Source: Candidatus Bathyarchaeia archaeon
Lineage (GTDB): Archaea; Thermoproteota; Bathyarchaeia; 40CM-2-53-6; DTGE01
DNA length: 48,290 nt
Assembly (NCBI GenBank): GCA_038852285.1
Contig: JAWCKG010000009.1
Location: forward strand, 1 to 48,290
Direction of reading: 5' to 3'
Shown here: piece after piece, positions 8,771-19,126 of the stretch
How the letters are laid out: the number at the start of each line of letters is the position of its first letter
Position numbering within the stretch: position 1 is the stretch's first letter
Made by a program: the position numbers and the translations under genes
The notes under the pieces: model-generated
Database searches by the model: none
What the model was told of the DNA's origin: nothing
What the model saw: the letters and a program-made list of their open reading frames with translations, nothing else

Positions 8771-8783
8771 TTCTTTATTTTTT
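8771..8783 (+). terminator. T-rich transcription terminator after the LLM gene
   Basis: A run TTCTTTATTTTTT starts 28 nt after the stop of the LLM gene. Archaeal RNA polymerase stops at such U-tracts. It just overlaps the stop codon of the convergent mobA. Confidence 0.45.
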
Positions 8784-9828
8784 ATGTAAGAAATTTATTT
8801 TTGATAAGTTGTTGACACCGCAAACTATCTTTAATAGCGCGGTGAGCTAACGTGCTAATCTTGTTGTCATCATAAATTTCAGCCTCTAATCTATAGTTTA
8901 GAGCAGCTTTTATGAGTGATGCATTTCTTAAGTTATAGGATTTTCTCAGCTTAAGCCCCAAATTAGTCAAACATTTAGCCTCGATCTCTCGGCTGATACC
9001 TGCCCAAAATTTCAACTGTTTACTTTCCATATATGTCGATAAAGGTGAAATGATGTCAAGTGCCTTTAAAAAATTTTTATGTAAATAATATTTTGAAGTA
9101 ATTTTAAGCAGCTTTAATTTATGCATATTAAGTTGTCCAAGTTTTAAATTTATGGTTTCTCTTACAGGCCCCACTTCGGTAACTCGTGTTGAAAGTATAT
9201 TAAGATCTTCAAGTGAATTTATGTTAATGAAGCTCTTAAATTCTGGATCAAAATATCTTAATTCATTAATTGTCGAAATATAGGAGATTTCAGGTGCTCC
9301 CCTTATAATGTCGTCAGGTCTATCCCGTCCTATTTCGCATAACGTTTCTGAAATACGGGCGACCGTCGATCTCTGACAAACCATCATGAGAGTTTCAAGT
9401 TTGCCGTTTGGATGTATTGGAACCGCTATGCACGCCTTTCTAAGAGCGGCAAACATGAAATCAACTACTGACGGTTGTATAAAAGGAGTATCGCATGGAA
9501 GTATTACACAGTGATCTGCGCTACTAGCGTTTAAACCTGTTGCGATGGCTGCAGCTGGACCTCTCTTCACGGAAGTGAATTGCTTATCAACGAACAACTT
9601 TACGTTTTTAATCGAAAAATGTTTTAATACCTTAGAATATCGAAGCTTTCGGGTTTGGCTATTAACACATATTATAATTTCGTCAACCGCTGGGATCACG
9701 CTTTCTATCACATATACGAGCAGAGGTTTACCGGAAAGTGTTATGAGAGCTTTATCTATCCATTGTTTTCCTCCTAATTGAAATCTCCTACTTTGACCTC
9801 CGGCGAGTATTATAGCTCCTCTTCTCAC
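8782..9828 (-). CDS. mobA: MobA-like molybdenum cofactor guanylyltransferase with long C-terminal extension
   Basis: Residues 1 to about 200 are a MobA-type nucleotidyltransferase, with the GTP-binding signature LAGGQSRRF (8-16), RGPAAAIATGL, and the metal-binding LPCDTPF. MobA adds GMP to molybdopterin to make the dinucleotide cofactor. The protein is 348 residues, against about 190-220 for ordinary MobA. The extra 130-150 residues are basic and helical (KLLKITSKYYLHKNFLKALDII and onward), with no domain I can name; the composition hints at a helical-repeat or RNA/protein-binding part. It is followed on the same strand by mobB and moeA, so it is the last gene of a moeA-mobB-mobA operon. Confidence 0.85.
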   Translation of the reverse strand: MRRGAIILAGGQSRRFQLGGKQWIDKALITLSGKPLLVYVIESVIPAVDEIIICVNSQTRKLRYSKVLKHFSIKNVKLFVDKQFTSVKRGPAAAIATGLNASSADHCVILPCDTPFIQPSVVDFMFAALRKACIAVPIHPNGKLETLMMVCQRSTVARISETLCEIGRDRPDDIIRGAPEISYISTINELRYFDPEFKSFININSLEDLNILSTRVTEVGPVRETINLKLGQLNMHKLKLLKITSKYYLHKNFLKALDIISPLSTYMESKQLKFWAGISREIEAKCLTNLGLKLRKSYNLRNASLIKAALNYRLEAEIYDDNKISTLAHRAIKDSLRCQQLIKNKFLT

Positions 9829-9850: not shown

Positions 9851-10396
9851 TTACTTTCTTCTCTTAAGGCAAATGTCCTTTACCAATTTTAGGAGGAGGT
9901 CGCCTTCGCCGTCTATGTCGATTATTGGCACATTAATGTTTGTTGTTTCAAGCTTCCTTTTAGTAATCACGCCTGTAATTGCTAGTATTGGCTCGGCTGT
10001 ACCATTCAACGTCATCATAAGCTCTTTTGCGTCCTTTGCTACGATTATTTTAAAGACACCTTTTTTCTTAGCGATAAGCGAATGTAACCCTTCAATAAAC
10101 ACGAAGTCTAGCTCCTCTTCGCCAAGAAATTTAATAATCCTATCTAAGTTATGTGTATCATCATCAGTTTTCTTGATTATCACCATCTCTTTAGGCGCAA
10201 TAGCTATAGTTACCATTGCTCCAGCGTGTGCATGTCTCCACGTGTCTGTGCCTTTAGTATCTATGGAAAAGTTTGTATGGTGAATATGTTTTATGGTGCC
10301 TACTTTATATCCCTCTTGTGTAAGTCGTGATGTAAGGTATTCGATTGTCGTGGTTTTACCTGAGCCGCTCATCCCAACTACGGCTATTACCTCCAT
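9851..10396 (-). CDS. mobB: Molybdopterin-guanine dinucleotide biosynthesis adaptor protein MobB
   Basis: 181 residues. Walker A motif GMSGSGKTT at 8-16, then the MobB-specific TIKHIHHTNFSIDTKGTDTWRH and the acidic motif FVFIEGLHS. MobB is a GTP-binding partner of MobA that aids cofactor maturation or delivery. It sits between moeA (1-nt gap) and mobA (22 nt), so all three are co-transcribed. A second MobB with an Fe-S extension lies at 12870, so this is the plain copy. Confidence 0.93.
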   Translation of the reverse strand: MEVIAVVGMSGSGKTTTIEYLTSRLTQEGYKVGTIKHIHHTNFSIDTKGTDTWRHAHAGAMVTIAIAPKEMVIIKKTDDDTHNLDRIIKFLGEEELDFVFIEGLHSLIAKKKGVFKIIVAKDAKELMMTLNGTAEPILAITGVITKRKLETTNINVPIIDIDGEGDLLLKLVKDICLKRRK

Positions 10397-10397
10397 G

Positions 10398-11681
10398 TCA
10401 CTGCGCCCTCATGCGTATAAGTCGATTAAATTCTTCATTACTAAACATGGTAACGTTTACTTCTTCACCCTTTTCTAAAGCTTTTTTTGGAGGTAGCAAA
10501 ATAAAACCATTGGATTTGACGAATCTACTTAAGCTACTTGCTCCTCCAAGAATCGGCTCCGCGATGAATGCACTGTTAACCCACCTTACATAAATCGTTA
10601 AAAATCTCCAAAGAGAACTATTATCTGCTTCCAGATCTCGATTCATTTTGGCGCTGATGATTGGGAATCCATCACCAACATTTAATCCCCTATACAAGCT
10701 GACTAATGGTGCAAGAATTAAATAAAATCCCGCTAAGGTGGAGGCGATTAAGCCGGGCAACATAACTATGGGCTTTCCTCTGATTACTCCAAATCCAGTA
10801 ACCCTTCCTGGCTTAACTCTAATTCCATGAACTATAATTCCTGGCTTTCCAAATGAGTCAATGGCATCTGGAACAAGATCCTTCTCGCCCACAGAGCATC
10901 CTCCTATTGTAACAATGATATCGGCCTCCTGTAAAGCCTCATCAATTTTCTTTTTAATTTCAGATAATTCGTCTGGAGCTATTCCTAGCCTAATCGCGAC
11001 ACCACCTAACTCTGATATTAAACTGGAAACAATTAGAGCGTAATTATCTACTATTCCCGAGGAATCAAGCTTACTTAACTCGAAAAGCTCATCTCCCGTA
11101 GAAATTATGGCCACTCTTGGTTTCTTAAACACCTTTACCGCCTTCAAGCCTATGCCTGCTAAAAATCCCACATCTTGTGGTCTTAAAACCTCCCCTATTT
11201 TAAGAGCCAAGCTCCCCACCCTCACATCTTCTCCGGCCTGAGCCACGTTCTCCCCCGCCTTAATAACATGCCGTATTTCAATTTCGCCATTATGTGGCAC
11301 CGTATTCTCGATTTTTATTACCGAATCAGCCCCCCTCGGTATTGGAGCCCCACATGTAACATAAGCTGTCTGTTTCGTTAATATACTACACTCCGTGGGA
11401 GGACTTGATGGATAAAGTTTCCCAACAACTCTCAGCATGACTGGATTCTTGGAAGATGCGTTCAGCGTGTCTACGGATTTAAGCGCATACCCATCCACCA
11501 AGCTTCGATCAGTTTGGGGGATGTCTAATTTTGACGTTACGTCCTCAGCTAAGACGCGCCCAACGGCTCTTTCAAGGGAAACCGTTTCATAACTCAAATT
11601 AACAGGCAGTGCTTGGATTTTCTTTAATGCCTCTCTATATGGAACTAGTTTAAGTATCCTTTTTTGAATGGTTCCATACAT
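10398..11681 (-). CDS. moeA: Molybdopterin molybdenumtransferase MoeA
   Basis: 427 residues covering the full MoeA domain order: an N-terminal domain with the conserved Asp/Ser loop (IPQTDRSLVDGYAL) and GEDVR, the central MPT-binding domain with VAIISTGDEL and TIGGCSVGEKD, and a C-terminal beta domain. MoeA inserts molybdate (or tungstate) into adenylylated molybdopterin. It is the first gene of moeA-mobB-mobA. A TATA-like CTAAATA lies on the minus strand near 11717-11724, about 40 nt before the ATG. All expected motifs are intact. Confidence 0.95.
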   Translation of the reverse strand: MYGTIQKRILKLVPYREALKKIQALPVNLSYETVSLERAVGRVLAEDVTSKLDIPQTDRSLVDGYALKSVDTLNASSKNPVMLRVVGKLYPSSPPTECSILTKQTAYVTCGAPIPRGADSVIKIENTVPHNGEIEIRHVIKAGENVAQAGEDVRVGSLALKIGEVLRPQDVGFLAGIGLKAVKVFKKPRVAIISTGDELFELSKLDSSGIVDNYALIVSSLISELGGVAIRLGIAPDELSEIKKKIDEALQEADIIVTIGGCSVGEKDLVPDAIDSFGKPGIIVHGIRVKPGRVTGFGVIRGKPIVMLPGLIASTLAGFYLILAPLVSLYRGLNVGDGFPIISAKMNRDLEADNSSLWRFLTIYVRWVNSAFIAEPILGGASSLSRFVKSNGFILLPPKKALEKGEEVNVTMFSNEEFNRLIRMRAQ

Positions 11682-12869: not shown

Positions 12870-13643
12870 ATGACTAAGTTTGTGGCGGTTGTTGGTGGGA
12901 AACACTCAGGGAAAACTACGGTAATTCAGCGTTTAATTTATGAACTTAAGCGTCGAGGTTATAGAGTAGGCTCAGCGAAGGAAATGTCCAGTGCTGGCTG
13001 GATTAACCTACCAGATAAGGACGCTTGGAAGCACGCTAGTGCCGGCGCGGAGATTGTAATAGCGACCCCGCTCAATGAGACTGTATGCTTCATAAAGAAA
13101 AGGTTGAACCTAAATGAAATGTCAACTTTTTTTCATGGGCTTGATTACGTTATCTTGGAAGGCTTTGAAAGTGAGAAAACCATTCCAAAGATAATAGCTG
13201 CTAAAGATGCGGAGGAAGCCGTAACCTACTCTGACGGCCTAGAGATCGCAATTTCAGGCATAATAACTGGGTTGGGTGTGGAAGTTGAGAAAGCTTCTTC
13301 CTTAAAGATTCCGATAATTAACTGTGAAACTGAAGCTGAAAAACTTGTAAATCTAGTTGAACGTATGGCTTTCCCAAAATTGCCGGGTATGTCACATTGT
13401 GGAGAATGCGGATATATTTCATGTTACGAATTTGCAAGGGCTCTCGTTACTGGCAAAGAAGTGTTAAAAAACTGTCCGTTATTAACGATGGATGAGGTAG
13501 TTCTAAATGTTAACGGTAACAGGATACCGTTAAAGGAGTTTCCGCGAATGATAATCAAGAATACTGTTTTAGGAATGATCTCATCTCTTAGTGGAGTTAG
13601 AAACGTAAATAAGGTTGAGATCATAGTCAAGAGAGAACGATGA
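12870..13643 (+). CDS. MobB-like GTP-binding protein fused to a C-terminal 4-Cys Fe-S domain
   Basis: 257 residues. The N-terminal MobB domain has Walker A GGKHSGKTT (9-17), a DAWKHASAGAE segment and YVILEGFES. The C-terminal domain carries Cys177, Cys180, Cys185 and Cys202 in the pattern CGECGY-x-x-C-x16-C, typical of the PF04060-like 4Fe-4S domain found in CO-dehydrogenase/corrinoid and RnfB proteins. It is a second MobB in the same island. The Fe-S part suggests a maturation or delivery job for a particular Mo/W enzyme, or redox gating, but this is inference. It is transcribed alone and converges with the ABC transporter operon. Confidence 0.85.
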   Translation: MTKFVAVVGGKHSGKTTVIQRLIYELKRRGYRVGSAKEMSSAGWINLPDKDAWKHASAGAEIVIATPLNETVCFIKKRLNLNEMSTFFHGLDYVILEGFESEKTIPKIIAAKDAEEAVTYSDGLEIAISGIITGLGVEVEKASSLKIPIINCETEAEKLVNLVERMAFPKLPGMSHCGECGYISCYEFARALVTGKEVLKNCPLLTMDEVVLNVNGNRIPLKEFPRMIIKNTVLGMISSLSGVRNVNKVEIIVKRER

Positions 13644-13660
13644 TGTCAACATGAGATGAT

Positions 13661-14449
13661 TTATTTTCTTAGCCTATAAGTGTTGAGGCTTATTATCGGT
13701 CTATCGTTCACGTTGCAGATTACTATTGGTATACTCCAAATCTTCTCTAACACCTCCCTAGTTATCGCCTCGCTGGGGGGGCCTTCACTCATCACTTCAC
13801 CCCCATTCAATATGATCACGTTATCCGCTACAAACGAAGCCTCGTTAGGGTCGTGTGTAGAGAAAAATATTGTTTTGCCAGAGTCAGCCATTTTCTTGAC
13901 TATGGAAAGCACCGTCGCCTTGTTTCCCAAATCTAAATGCGCCGTAGGTTCGTCCATAATAAGTATATCGGACTCCTGAGCCAGCGCCCTAGCTATTGAA
14001 ACAAGTCTTTTTTCTCCCCCACTTAAACTTGGAACTTTTCTGTGAGCTATTTTTAACAAGCCCAATCGGTGAAGAACATTGTACACCACTTCTTCATCCT
14101 CCTCATTCGGCACATCGAAGAAGCCGAGATGCGGAGCCCTGCCCATGAGAACGTATTCATAAACAGTATATGGAAAAAATGAGTCCTCTTCCTGTGGGAT
14201 CCAAGCCATGATTTTACTTAAATAGCTCGCATCAATACTATCGACGTCTTTACCGTCTATATAGATTTTACCCCCATAAGGAATCAATATTTTAAGTAGA
14301 ATTTTAAAAAGCGTGGATTTACCCGACCCGTTAGGTCCCAGCAAGGCACTTACTTTGCCTTTGGGTACCTCAAAAGATACACCTTTCAAAACGTCCGCCG
14401 CATCCTCCTTATATTTATACTTAAGATTTTTAATACACACCTTACTCAT
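13661..14449 (-). CDS. ABC transporter ATP-binding protein (FecE/BtuD/MolC type)
   Basis: 262 residues with Walker A GPNGSGKST (38-46), a Q-loop (WIPQEEDSFFPYTVYEYV), the signature LSGGEKRL, Walker B ILIMDEPTAHLDLG and the switch His in FFSTHDPNEA. It energises import through the adjacent FecCD-type permease, whose frame it overlaps by 8 nt. Transporters of this family carry iron-siderophore, B12 or, as in MolBCA, molybdate/tungstate. Its place in a Mo-cofactor island argues for molybdate or tungstate. It is the last gene of the FmdE-binding protein-permease-ATPase operon. Confidence 0.92.
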   Translation of the reverse strand: MSKVCIKNLKYKYKEDAADVLKGVSFEVPKGKVSALLGPNGSGKSTLFKILLKILIPYGGKIYIDGKDVDSIDASYLSKIMAWIPQEEDSFFPYTVYEYVLMGRAPHLGFFDVPNEEDEEVVYNVLHRLGLLKIAHRKVPSLSGGEKRLVSIARALAQESDILIMDEPTAHLDLGNKATVLSIVKKMADSGKTIFFSTHDPNEASFVADNVIILNGGEVMSEGPPSEAITREVLEKIWSIPIVICNVNDRPIISLNTYRLRK

Positions 14450-15410
14450 GAGACATTCCTCTTGAAAGCAATATTATAAATAATGTTGAACCTATGATAG
14501 ATGCGACTATGCCGAGGGGTATCTCGCCGGCCGTTATTGTTCGTGCAATGTCGTCAAAAGTTATCGTTAAAATAGCGCCTAATAGTATTGAAGCTGGGAT
14601 TACTTTACTGCTCTCAGCCCCGAACAGCTTCCTAGACATGTGTGGAATTGTTAATCCAACCCAGCCTATTATACCTGCCACGGAGGTAACCGATGCCGTT
14701 GCTAATACTGCGCTGACAACTACAAAAGCCCTAAGTTTTTTAGGATCGGTTCCTAAGGATGTAACGATGTCATCGTCTAAGGTCAGCAAGTTAACCCTCC
14801 ATCTAGCAATAAGTATTAATGCTATGCCCACGATGGCTAAGGGAGCAGCGTAGAAAAAGTCCCTCCAAGTAACACCTGATAAACCACCTAGCAACCAAAA
14901 AGTTAGTTCTGGTAGCTGTTTTAAGGGATCCGCTAAACACTTCATTGCTCCCACTCCGGCTGAGTATATCGCTGAAACAGCTAATCCCGCCAGCACTAAC
15001 TTAAGAATTCTTCCGCCGTACTTTATTGCGGAGGAGATAGCATATGAGGTTAAGAGTGCCAATAAACCAAAAATCATTGATAAGACCTCTATTTTTACGG
15101 GATCGCTTGCAAGAAAAAGTATGGCTAAAGCTGCTCCGAACGCCGCTCCTTGACTGACACCTAGAATTTCCGGTCCAACTAAAGGATTTCTAAAAGCCGA
15201 CTGCAAGGTAGCGCCAGATATGGATAAGGCCGCCCCCAGTACAGTTGCAGTCAGGATTCGAGGTAATCTAACATTGAAAATTATCTTCAAGACTAGGTCA
15301 TCTAATATCAACCTATTGGGGTAAATCGTGTACCTACCAATAAACATGGATGCGATGAATGTGATGGCTAGAATAATCGATAGTGAGTGAAATCGAACAC
15401 TATGCTCCAA
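14442..15410 (-). CDS. ABC transporter permease, FecCD family
   Basis: 322 residues, hydrophobic throughout, with about nine or ten membrane helices. FecCD signatures are present: RLPRILTATVLGAALSISGA near residue 50, FRNPLVGPEILGVSQGAAFG, and SVAGIIGWVGLTIPHMSRKL before the C-terminal helices. It forms the channel of the importer with the ATPase at 13661 and the binding protein at 15433. Substrate specificity is not encoded in the permease motifs; molybdate/tungstate is inferred from neighbours. Confidence 0.93.
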   Translation of the reverse strand: MEHSVRFHSLSIILAITFIASMFIGRYTIYPNRLILDDLVLKIIFNVRLPRILTATVLGAALSISGATLQSAFRNPLVGPEILGVSQGAAFGAALAILFLASDPVKIEVLSMIFGLLALLTSYAISSAIKYGGRILKLVLAGLAVSAIYSAGVGAMKCLADPLKQLPELTFWLLGGLSGVTWRDFFYAAPLAIVGIALILIARWRVNLLTLDDDIVTSLGTDPKKLRAFVVVSAVLATASVTSVAGIIGWVGLTIPHMSRKLFGAESSKVIPASILLGAILTITFDDIARTITAGEIPLGIVASIIGSTLFIILLSRGMSHE

Positions 15411-15432
15411 AGACCGATCCCTTTAGGTTCCT

Positions 15433-16548
15433 TTAGATTAAGTCTCCTGAGATTCCATTAACTATTATGAGCGCGTCTTTCTCTTCAAGACCATACATTT
15501 TCATGTAAAAGTTTTTAGCGTCTATAATGATATCTATGTCGCTGTAGAGAGATGGGTTTATTTTCCTCGCCATCCATTCCAGCCCAAGAGCCCACCTAGA
15601 ACCAGGGGTATCCCAGCTGCCTAGGGCCCCTATATTGCCACAATCATGAGGAACAGCGTATACTTCCCCATTCATCACCGCATTTATTTTCATCCACTCA
15701 GGGCTTCGCAAAAGTACATTTTTCGCGTCAACTGCTGACGGTGAGTCGGAGTAGGTAACGAGAAATATTATATCTGGATTCCACCGGGCTATTTGCTCGA
15801 AGGATACAGTATTCCATCCTGTCTCAGCAAGTTCCCTGGATAAAGCGTAACCTCCAGCTGCCTCTATCATGAATGTCTGCAACCATCCTTCTCCTGGCAC
15901 CTGAAATGAAACTGCACCCCCTTTCGTGCTATAGTATAAAAAAAGAACTTTTCGTCTCTCTTTTGTGATTGATGACTTGGAAAGGACGGTGTTGTAGGTT
16001 TCGTTATAGTGCTTTACGATTTTTTCAGCTATATCATCATTCCTGAAAACTTTCCCTAACACTCTAAGATCTCGAATATAACTGTTCAAATTCTCAAAGT
16101 CAACGTAAACAACTTTAATTCCCAATTCTTCCAACGAATCCCCTATGGTTAGTTTCATCGTAGACTTAAGTATGACCACATCGGGATTCATGGCAACTAT
16201 TTCCTCCACGTTTGGGGTAGCACTTGTAGTCGGAACTATTTTAGACTCTATACTTGGATCTACCATTCTGAACAATGGACAATCCACTTCACCTCTTAAA
16301 CCGTAAAGAACGTTTTTAGCGTTAGGGAACATGTACGCCACAGTTACAATGGGCCATGAACCTGCGCCTGTTATTACCACTCTGTTAATGGGTAATTTCA
16401 ATTGGACCACTCTGTTTGACGCATCTGTAAAAGTAATGAATTCCTCTCGAGATTCCGTAGGGCTGCATCGCCAAATTAGTAAGTAAGTGACCGTAAAAGT
16501 ACCCAGTATGCATAGAATAATTAATGCCAGTAATAAACTCTTTCTCAC
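15433..16548 (-). CDS. ABC transporter substrate-binding protein, FecB/BtuF type (putative molybdate/tungstate)
   Basis: 371 residues. An N-terminal signal/anchor helix (about 4-28) is followed by the two-lobed periplasmic-binding-protein type III fold: FTDASNRVVQLKLPINRVVI, then NPDVVILKS, then the long linker helix and NPDIIFLVTYSD. This class lacks the classical ModA/WtpA motifs but includes MolA-type molybdate binders. It is encoded 22 nt before the permease and 1 nt after the FmdE gene. Being beside FmdE, ModE and Mo-cofactor genes, it most likely binds an oxyanion of Mo or W rather than a siderophore; a corrinoid remains possible. Confidence 0.85.
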   Translation of the reverse strand: MRKSLLLALIILCILGTFTVTYLLIWRCSPTESREEFITFTDASNRVVQLKLPINRVVITGAGSWPIVTVAYMFPNAKNVLYGLRGEVDCPLFRMVDPSIESKIVPTTSATPNVEEIVAMNPDVVILKSTMKLTIGDSLEELGIKVVYVDFENLNSYIRDLRVLGKVFRNDDIAEKIVKHYNETYNTVLSKSSITKERRKVLFLYYSTKGGAVSFQVPGEGWLQTFMIEAAGGYALSRELAETGWNTVSFEQIARWNPDIIFLVTYSDSPSAVDAKNVLLRSPEWMKINAVMNGEVYAVPHDCGNIGALGSWDTPGSRWALGLEWMARKINPSLYSDIDIIIDAKNFYMKMYGLEEKDALIIVNGISGDLI

Positions 16549-16549
16549 A

Positions 16550-17137
16550 CTATTTCCTCACCTTACCACCACAACCAATATTAGGTATATAATATCTCAT
16601 TCCAAAACATGCCCTGCAAATTTTTCTTCCTTCTTTCATAACGGATTTAACTTCGAGGACCAACTCATCACATTCACAACATTTGACTACTTCACCGCCA
16701 TCAAATTCTGGAAATTTTTCAAACATTACCTTCTCGATCTGAAAAAATGAATCATCTAAACGGAGTAATTCTTTAGCAAGCTCTTCTTCCTCTTCATGGC
16801 TTAGTCTTCTTTTTCGCATAACCCAATCATCAAATAATGGAGAACATACTACTCGTTTCAACGTTATCCTCACAGCCTCTTTTGTATCCGATCTAGCCAA
16901 GCAGAAAGCAAGCTTACCGAAATCCTCGATCTGTAATGAGTTGTGACCGGGTGTGCACCCTGTAGTTGCTTGAACACCGTCGGGCAGACATAAACTCGTC
17001 TCCACAATAGCGTAAAGTCTCTTGTCACCCCTGGGAAGCCCGATACTTTTCAAGCTTATTTGACCCATTCGAATTCCTAAAGCTACTCCTGGTGCGAGGT
17101 GCCCATGCAAGTCTCTCGACAAATCGACTACGTTCAT
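16550..17137 (-). CDS. FmdE-family protein with C-terminal zinc ribbon
   Basis: About 195 residues from the ATG at 17137. The longer frame from 17179 is unlikely because the TATA-like box at 17196-17205 would place the transcript start near 17174. The FmdE domain begins DLSRDLHGHLAPGVALGIRMG and has the conserved TGCTPGHNSLQIEDFGK. The tail has a CCEC...CRAC zinc ribbon. FmdE was named for the molybdenum formylmethanofuran dehydrogenase operon but is not a subunit; homologues occur widely near Mo/W genes. Here it heads the FecBCD-type importer operon, 1 nt before the binding-protein gene. No formylmethanofuran dehydrogenase genes are in the window. Confidence 0.85.
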   Translation of the reverse strand: MNVVDLSRDLHGHLAPGVALGIRMGQISLKSIGLPRGDKRLYAIVETSLCLPDGVQATTGCTPGHNSLQIEDFGKLAFCLARSDTKEAVRITLKRVVCSPLFDDWVMRKRRLSHEEEEELAKELLRLDDSFFQIEKVMFEKFPEFDGGEVVKCCECDELVLEVKSVMKEGRKICRACFGMRYYIPNIGCGGKVRK

Positions 17138-17195
17138 CTTTAATATCCTAGTATTTTTGATTAACAGGCGATGGTACAAACTTGTAACATCGAAG

Positions 17196-17669: not shown

Positions 17670-18032
17670 TTACCTATAACGTTGAATTTTATTCCGATAC
17701 GCAAAGCTGAAGGATCGTAGAAACTTCTTAATCTCTCTCTCCGTATTTCTGTATTTTATAAGCAATTTCTTCCCTTGAGCTGTTAGTTCCGAAGTACCCC
17801 CAGCAACCCCACCGCGGCTTCTCCTAATCAGCACGCATCTTAACCGTCTTTCTGCAAGTGAAACTCTGTGAAGGGCGTACCTGTAGGACATATCTAATTT
17901 TTTAGATGCTTTCGAAATAGATCGGTATTTTTCAACCTCTTCTAAGAGTGTTACCAAACCATCTCCTAAAACCGACTCGCCATCCTCATTTACAAACCAA
18001 AGCTTAGCCTTAGGGTAGATGCGCATAGACAT
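17670..18032 (-). CDS. ModE-like winged-helix regulator (DNA-binding domain only)
   Basis: 120 residues matching the N-terminal LysR-type winged helix of ModE: LWFVNEDGESVLGDGLVTLL, then YRSISKASKKLDMSYRYALH (recognition region), then GGVAGGTSELTAQGKKLL. It lacks the C-terminal molybdate-binding TOBE domains of bacterial ModE, as is common in archaea, so how it would sense Mo/W is open. It probably controls the neighbouring transporter or cofactor genes. A second in-frame ATG two codons in is an equally good start. Confidence 0.88.
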   Translation of the reverse strand: MSMRIYPKAKLWFVNEDGESVLGDGLVTLLEEVEKYRSISKASKKLDMSYRYALHRVSLAERRLRCVLIRRSRGGVAGGTSELTAQGKKLLIKYRNTEREIKKFLRSFSFAYRNKIQRYR

Positions 18033-18280: not shown

Positions 18281-19126
18281 TTATACGATTATTCTATCCT
18301 GGAATGTATAAACCTTCATATATTTTTTGTCCTCTACACTTACAAGCGTTATTCCTACTTTTTCGGCGGCTACTACGCCCGAAATTATAGGGTTAGCGAT
18401 CGATGCTGTTATTGGTATGCCTATTCTAGCTGCTTTTAGAACTAAATGCGCAGACAGCCTACCGGAAGTTAATAAAATCAAATTTGAAAAATCGTGTCGT
18501 TTTAATGCAGCGTCTCCTACAACTTTATCAATAGCGTTATGTCTTCCTACATCCTCAGAAAAGGATACGAGTTCAGCGTTTCCTAGGAAAATTGCTGCTG
18601 AATGAACCCCCCTAGTGGCCTTATATACTATGCCTCTTTTATTCAGCTGCTTAACCATCTTTAAAACATCTTTAGCTTTAACCTTCACATCTGACAATAC
18701 ATGAAGCTCATCCAATTCCTTTAAAGCTTTAATGAAATCCTCGTATGGCCCTTGAGTAGATGTGAAAAGCCTTACATATTTCCTTACTTTTTGACTATAA
18801 TCCGGTGTTCTTCTTAAGTTAACATTTACCGTGCCTTTTGATATGTAGAGCTCTTCCAAATCCTCTATAGATCGTATCCACCCCTCACTCAATAAATGAC
18901 CTATTATAAGCTCTTTCTCCATCGTAGGCGAGGCTATAAAAATGGCGTATTGCTCATTATTTACGTATACCTTTATACATTTCTCTGTAGCCAACGTATC
19001 GGAGTCCAGTTTAGCCTCTCCCGATTTAAAACCTATCTTCATTACAGCCCTTTCAGACATTAGTTCATTAGTTTCCAAAGTCAAGTTCTCAAACAGAGTT
19101 AAGTCATCTACCATATAAGGCTTCAT
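18281..19126 (-). CDS. fdhD: FdhD-family protein (formate dehydrogenase accessory type) without the CXXC loop
   Basis: 281 residues. FdhD core motifs are present: ELIIGHLLSEGWI near residue 73, RGVHSAAIFL, FSEDVGRHNAIDKVVGDA, LLTSGRLSAHLVLKAA and GIPITASIANPIISG. FdhD passes sulfur from a cysteine desulfurase to the bis-MGD cofactor of formate dehydrogenases through a Cys-X2-Cys loop in E. coli. Here the corresponding loop (121-128) reads FTSTQGPY and has no cysteine; the only Cys in the protein is residue 50. It may therefore act as a cofactor-binding chaperone rather than a sulfurtransferase. It is upstream of the ModE-like gene on the same strand, 248 bp apart. Confidence 0.88.
   Translation of the reverse strand: MKPYMVDDLTLFENLTLETNELMSERAVMKIGFKSGEAKLDSDTLATEKCIKVYVNNEQYAIFIASPTMEKELIIGHLLSEGWIRSIEDLEELYISKGTVNVNLRRTPDYSQKVRKYVRLFTSTQGPYEDFIKALKELDELHVLSDVKVKAKDVLKMVKQLNKRGIVYKATRGVHSAAIFLGNAELVSFSEDVGRHNAIDKVVGDAALKRHDFSNLILLTSGRLSAHLVLKAARIGIPITASIANPIISGVVAAEKVGITLVSVEDKKYMKVYTFQDRIIV

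Follow-up and report, generated by a model that had tools for sequence, protein, structure and literature searches.

The window analysed here is a 48,290-nt stretch of a Bathyarchaeia metagenome-assembled genome (MAG; 1.7 Mb, 99% complete), whose single fdhD gene lies on contig C9 at positions 18281–19126 of the minus strand. The gene starts with ATG, its reading frame is open throughout, and it encodes a full-length, 281-residue FdhD/NarQ family protein without a cysteine in the loop that carries the sulfur-transfer cysteine in its relatives. It sits within an island of molybdenum/tungsten cofactor genes. Encoded on the same strand are a ModE-like DNA-binding domain protein (17670–18032; NCBIfam ModE_repress, 61.2 bits, below the cut-off of 98.5), an FmdE-like protein (16550–17179; PF02663, 115 bits) and an ABC transporter comprising a Peripla_BP_2 substrate-binding protein, a FecCD permease and an ATPase (13661–16548). 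The FmdE-like gene ends just before the transporter cluster, whose position suggests that it may take up molybdate or tungstate. A protein that joins a MobB-like domain to an Fe–S cluster domain is encoded on the plus strand (12870–13643), and a MoeA-like molybdotransferase (10398–11681), MobB (9851–10396) and a MobA-like guanylyltransferase (8782–9828; 85 bits, below the equivalog cut-off of 151.85) on the minus strand. The latter has a C-terminal extension of ~130 residues past the stretch matched by the MobA models.

Sixteen proteins of the query genome were compared with the open reading frames (ORFs) of 100 FdhD loci from the class, most of which span ±4 kb. The FmdE-like and ModE-like proteins were the best match of no ORF in these loci, and their position beside fdhD is therefore not a general feature. 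The desulfurase of the query genome, included as a possible sulfur-carrier neighbour, was the best match to a single ORF.

Family models and predicted fold both identify the protein as a true member of the FdhD/NarQ family. It scores 203.6 bits against Pfam PF02634 (FdhD-NarQ; cut-off 27.2) and 159 bits against NCBIfam TIGR00129 (cut-off 140.9), and falls short of the narrower FdhD equivalog NF001943 (168.8 bits; cut-off 269). The AlphaFold2 model has a mean pLDDT of 87.8, with most of residues 110–126 below 50. At E ≤0.001, Foldseek returned two FdhD entries, 2PW9 (E 1.6e-22) and 4PDE (E 3.0e-22), and no others. The FdhD-like protein of Desulfotalea psychrophila (2PW9) is the best solved match by sequence as well as fold; its loop aligns as TSGCGG, with one cysteine where the query has none. 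Escherichia coli FdhD (4PDE) shares the fold and the EDVGRH...DK motif with the query and differs from it in having C121, which carries a persulfide received from IscS, and C124 and in serving a formate dehydrogenase, an enzyme that the query genome lacks at the model cut-off. The first-pass annotation described all FdhD motifs outside the loop as intact, which overstates the case: among 28 columns conserved at ≥95% in the class alignment, 25 are kept in the query, including EDVGRHNAIDK and SGR, and the exceptions are G172R, F264V and R266D.

The disordered loop is encoded at 18749–18799 of the minus strand (residues 110–126, mostly at pLDDT <50). As the first-pass annotation had read from the translation, residues 121–128 are FTSTQGPY and the only cysteine is Cys50 (codon at 18977–18979); residues 51–281 contain none. 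In an alignment of 150 FdhD sequences from the class, Gln125 (CAA, 18752–18754) occupies the column that holds the single loop cysteine of all 120 cysteine-bearing proteins. CAA differs from TGC at three bases and from any cysteine codon at two or three, so one sequencing error is ruled out as the source of Gln125. The Cys50 column is Pro in 118 of the 150 rows and Cys in the query alone, and we reject residue 50 as a displaced catalytic cysteine.

Loop cysteine loss was followed across 256 Bathyarchaeia genomes, one per species and mostly MAGs. FdhD is present in 167 of them, and the 150 aligned sequences come from 145 of these; the other 22 genomes, whose matches were weaker and outside the listing, fragmentary or, for G370, listed, were left out of the alignment, rows shorter than 191 residues or with E >1e-20 having been dropped. 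The match lists on which the class comparisons draw each run to about 150–165 entries. None of the 150 proteins has Cys-X2-Cys, 120 have one loop cysteine and 30 have none. One of the dropped rows (L012, genome G039) is an FdhD that lacks the loop altogether, and its inclusion brings the cysteine-less total to 31 of 151. The first-pass annotation had measured the query against the E. coli Cys-X2-Cys pair; the pair is indeed missing, but it is the wrong yardstick for a class in which no aligned FdhD has it. A common loop type, PLIK-STS-YQ and its variants, accounts for 25 of the 30 cysteine-less proteins; the remainder are the query, those of G041, G328 and G051, and the second copy of G257.

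The loop cysteine has been lost about six times in the class. A maximum-likelihood tree built without the loop columns requires six state changes, of which well supported branches force five or more, and a class-only tree without outgroups again gives six. The query has an end branch of 1.44 (median 0.24) in the former and of 1.54 (median 0.23) in the latter, where it is the longest of all; its placement is unsure because of this very long branch. We also considered compensation by a cysteine elsewhere in the protein. In the large cysteine-less clade, the positions that align with residues 100 and 216 of the query are Cys in all 25 members, but they are also Cys in 65 and 81, respectively, of the 120 loop-cysteine proteins, and the query has neither; the idea is not supported. 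Outside the class, loop cysteines are also missing from the FdhD proteins of Ca. Argoarchaeum (L061) and Ca. Ethanoperedens (L091), whose genomes encode FwdB; unlike the query, both have the entire sulfur-transfer loop deleted. Ethanoperedens additionally has a formate-dehydrogenase-like protein of 970 residues (552.7 bits, below the cut-off).

Cysteine-less FdhD proteins are already in the literature, and the query adds one more example to them. Cys-X2-Cys is described as not conserved across the family (PMC6239281), and reviews mention FdhDs with one loop cysteine or none. Cysteine variants of the E. coli and Rhodobacter capsulatus proteins are reported still to bind bis-MGD and to yield active formate dehydrogenase (PMC6239281). 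R. capsulatus FdsC thus remains functional when its loop cysteines are replaced (C104A/C107A variants), and the query has no such cysteines to begin with; in contrast to the query, wild-type FdsC has a CXXC motif and a formate dehydrogenase client (PMC6239281). The FdhD of Methanococcus maripaludis, like the query, is described as having no loop cysteine and a retained cofactor-binding motif, and another route of sulfuration has been suggested for this organism, which is said to have no cysteine desulfurase (PMC10609526). A cysteine-less FdhD is, by itself, ordinary. The earlier conclusion that the known persulfide relay is unusable is sound, since no persulfide can be carried on a loop without cysteine, and the suggestion of a chaperone, or of another sulfur source, agrees with what these papers propose for such proteins (PMC10609526, PMC6239281). 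That interpretation is therefore partly supported, and in kind already published.

The explanation given for M. maripaludis does not hold for the Bathyarchaeia. The first-pass annotation had proposed mapping cysteine loss against the presence of IscS-like desulfurases, here scored as a match to NCBIfam TIGR03402 at E <1e-70, a threshold chosen for this analysis. Such a NifS/IscS-family match is found in the genomes of 28 of the 30 cysteine-less and 106 of the 120 cysteine-bearing FdhDs (Fisher p 0.74), so the two are not associated. Desulfurase loss is accordingly rejected as the cause of cysteine loss, the query genome being among the 28 that have a match. Its own desulfurase (L259) carries the SACTS...EPSHV motif and scores below equivalog level against both NifS (373.6 bits; cut-off 530.75) and IscS (310.4 bits; cut-off 643.2); its presence sets the query apart from M. 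maripaludis.

The candidate clients of the query FdhD are the MopB proteins of its genome. No formate dehydrogenase alpha subunit scores above the cut-off in this genome (best 318–319 bits; cut-off 666.25). The formylmethanofuran dehydrogenase (Fwd) subunit FwdB is well matched (560.8 bits; cut-off 327.8) and is encoded in an mtd-fwdD-fwdB-fwdA cluster on contig C10, thus apart from fdhD on C9. The SVCHGPG segment of this FwdB aligns with the site of a non-standard residue (X) in its best solved relative. Like formate dehydrogenase, Fwd is reported to carry a sulfido/sulfhydryl ligand (PMC11656701). The other two MopB proteins are an acetylene-hydratase-like protein of 734 residues and an ArrA/PhsA-like protein of 911 residues; no ORF in the 100 FdhD loci (mostly ±4 kb) had either of them as its best match.

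Across the class, FdhD seems to go with formylmethanofuran dehydrogenase rather than with formate dehydrogenase. FwdB is found in 206 of the 256 genomes at E 1e-3 (186 above the cut-off), and formate dehydrogenase alpha above the cut-off in 19. Counts for both proteins, FdhD alone, FwdB alone and neither are 149, 18, 43 and 46 (odds ratio 8.9, p 2e-12, uncorrected for kinship); the corresponding counts for FdhD and formate dehydrogenase alpha are 14, 153, 5 and 84 (odds ratio 1.5, p 0.62, likewise uncorrected). In genomes that are ≥90% complete and ≤5% contaminated, a table compiled by hand from the tallies and completeness values gives 94, 3, 14 and 9 for FdhD and FwdB (p 1.2e-5, kinship ignored). 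Fwd is not strictly dependent on FdhD, since 43 of the 192 genomes with a strong FwdB match have no FdhD. Formate dehydrogenase above the cut-off accompanies one of the 31 cysteine-less FdhDs, the loop-less protein of G039.

Gene order points the same way in part of the class. We compared 116 FdhD and 79 FwdB places chosen among the matches listed; these coordinates, like the genome sets behind the desulfurase, co-occurrence and MopB comparisons, were transcribed by hand. Within this set the two genes share a contig in 42 genomes and lie within 12 kb of each other in 32, with the next gap at 162 kb; the 32 close pairs span 20 genera, 30 are co-oriented, and 28 come from one family. In the 100 FdhD loci (mostly ±4 kb), fwdA, fwdB or fwdD is near FdhD in 26, made up of 16 of the 23 cysteine-less and 10 of the 77 cysteine-bearing loci. 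Among the matches listed, FwdB is the sole MopB catalytic subunit, or there is none, in 28 of the 30 cysteine-less genomes, and 77 of the 115 genomes with only cysteine-bearing FdhD have no MopB protein other than FwdB (p 0.003, a comparison dominated by one clade). Adjacency of FdhD to Fmd genes is already in print: in a figure legend for a Bathy-6 genome, FmdCFAC occupy genes 362–365 and FdhD is gene 366 (PMC11697101). Judged by titles or the beginnings of abstracts, no paper assigning FdhD to formylmethanofuran dehydrogenase was found; the word FdhD is absent from the available text of a Fwd review (PMC11656701), and a passage of another paper mentions FdhD only beside formate dehydrogenase (PMC3087415).

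We propose that the query FdhD acts as a cofactor chaperone for FwdB and that sulfur bypasses an FdhD persulfide, a reading that we believe and doubt in roughly equal measure. FdhD would probably bind the W/Mo bis-pyranopterin guanine dinucleotide (bis-PGD) and hand it to the FwdB encoded on the other contig, an enzyme that, like formate dehydrogenase, requires a sulfido ligand. The loop persulfide would be dispensed with, as appears to have happened several times in the class, and either the IscS/NifS-like desulfurase, acting directly, or sulfide in the anaerobic cell would probably supply the sulfido sulfur. Sulfuration of R. capsulatus formate dehydrogenase in vitro by sulfide and a reductant, with no chaperone, has been reported (PMC12140954). 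Against the proposal stand the separate contigs of fdhD and fwdB in the query genome, its two other MopB proteins as possible clients, the genomes with FwdB and no FdhD, a cysteine-less FdhD with no detected client in G328, the formate dehydrogenase of G039, and the long branch and near-invariant substitutions of the query. More tentatively, and with doubt prevailing, FdhD could be mainly a maturation chaperone for Fwd throughout the Bathyarchaeia, and perhaps in other archaea with Fwd, in which case the loop cysteine would be free to be lost wherever Fwd is the only detected bis-PGD enzyme, and Fwd would acquire its sulfido ligand with no FdhD persulfide involved.

The alternatives differ in what they ask of the protein. 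An FdhD that degenerates under weak constraint after the loss of formate dehydrogenase, and now does little, would explain the long end branch of the query in both trees and the three substitutions at near-invariant positions. It would also fit two other genomes, each 98% complete: G001, the one further genome searched from the query's family, has FwdB and no FdhD, and G328 has a loop-cysteine-deleted FdhD (L224 on C12) with neither a FwdB nor a PF00384 match, and thus without a detected client. We nevertheless consider degeneration unlikely. The query frame is open and full length, the gene lies among MobA-, MobB-, MoeA- and ModE-like genes, most near-invariant residues persist, EDVGRHNAIDK and SGR included, and five cysteine-bearing FdhDs of the class have as many or more such changes (at least three each).

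A somewhat less probable alternative is that the client is the 734- or the 911-residue MopB protein and that the query inserts a cofactor without a sulfur requirement. The query genome encodes both enzymes, and the smaller is closest to acetylene hydratase, whose tungsten has no known sulfido ligand. Such a client cannot explain the class pattern, however, because among the matches listed no enzyme of this kind occurs in 28 of the 30 cysteine-less genomes, and linkage to FdhD is seen in none of the 100 loci (mostly ±4 kb). That the query is a canonical sulfurtransferase with its catalytic cysteine elsewhere, or an assembly artefact, is very improbable. Cys50 does exist and the sequence does come from a MAG, but nothing further speaks for either idea: the Cys50 column is Cys in one of 150 rows, CAA is several base changes from a cysteine codon, and the class contains 29 more cysteine-less relatives. 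The reading of FdhD as a chaperone for FwdB is the one we favour.

Relatives were already known to have lost the cysteine; what deserves pursuit is the identity of the client. Formylmethanofuran dehydrogenase brings CO2 into archaeal carbon metabolism by fixing it onto methanofuran, and FdhDs without the loop cysteine make up about a fifth of the sampled class sequences. Whether FdhD holds and inserts the cofactor or carries sulfur is disputed for the E. coli protein. If FdhD matures Fwd in the Bathyarchaeia and works without the loop cysteine, the approximately six independent losses form a natural set for telling cofactor insertion and sulfur carriage apart.

Several further features were seen in individual genomes. 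G257 has two FdhD copies (L195, L151); the cysteine-less copy is 6.2 kb from fwdB, and the cysteine-bearing copy is on a different contig. In G041, whose FdhD also has no loop cysteine, a second MopB-type gene (contig C33, ~112781–113974; L266) is split into ORFs of 138, 152, 252 and 132 residues and looks broken, since these lie in different frames. For FwdB in many genomes of the class (frames of ~490 residues), the match to the family model is broken in two, a pattern suggestive of an inserted segment near model position 170.
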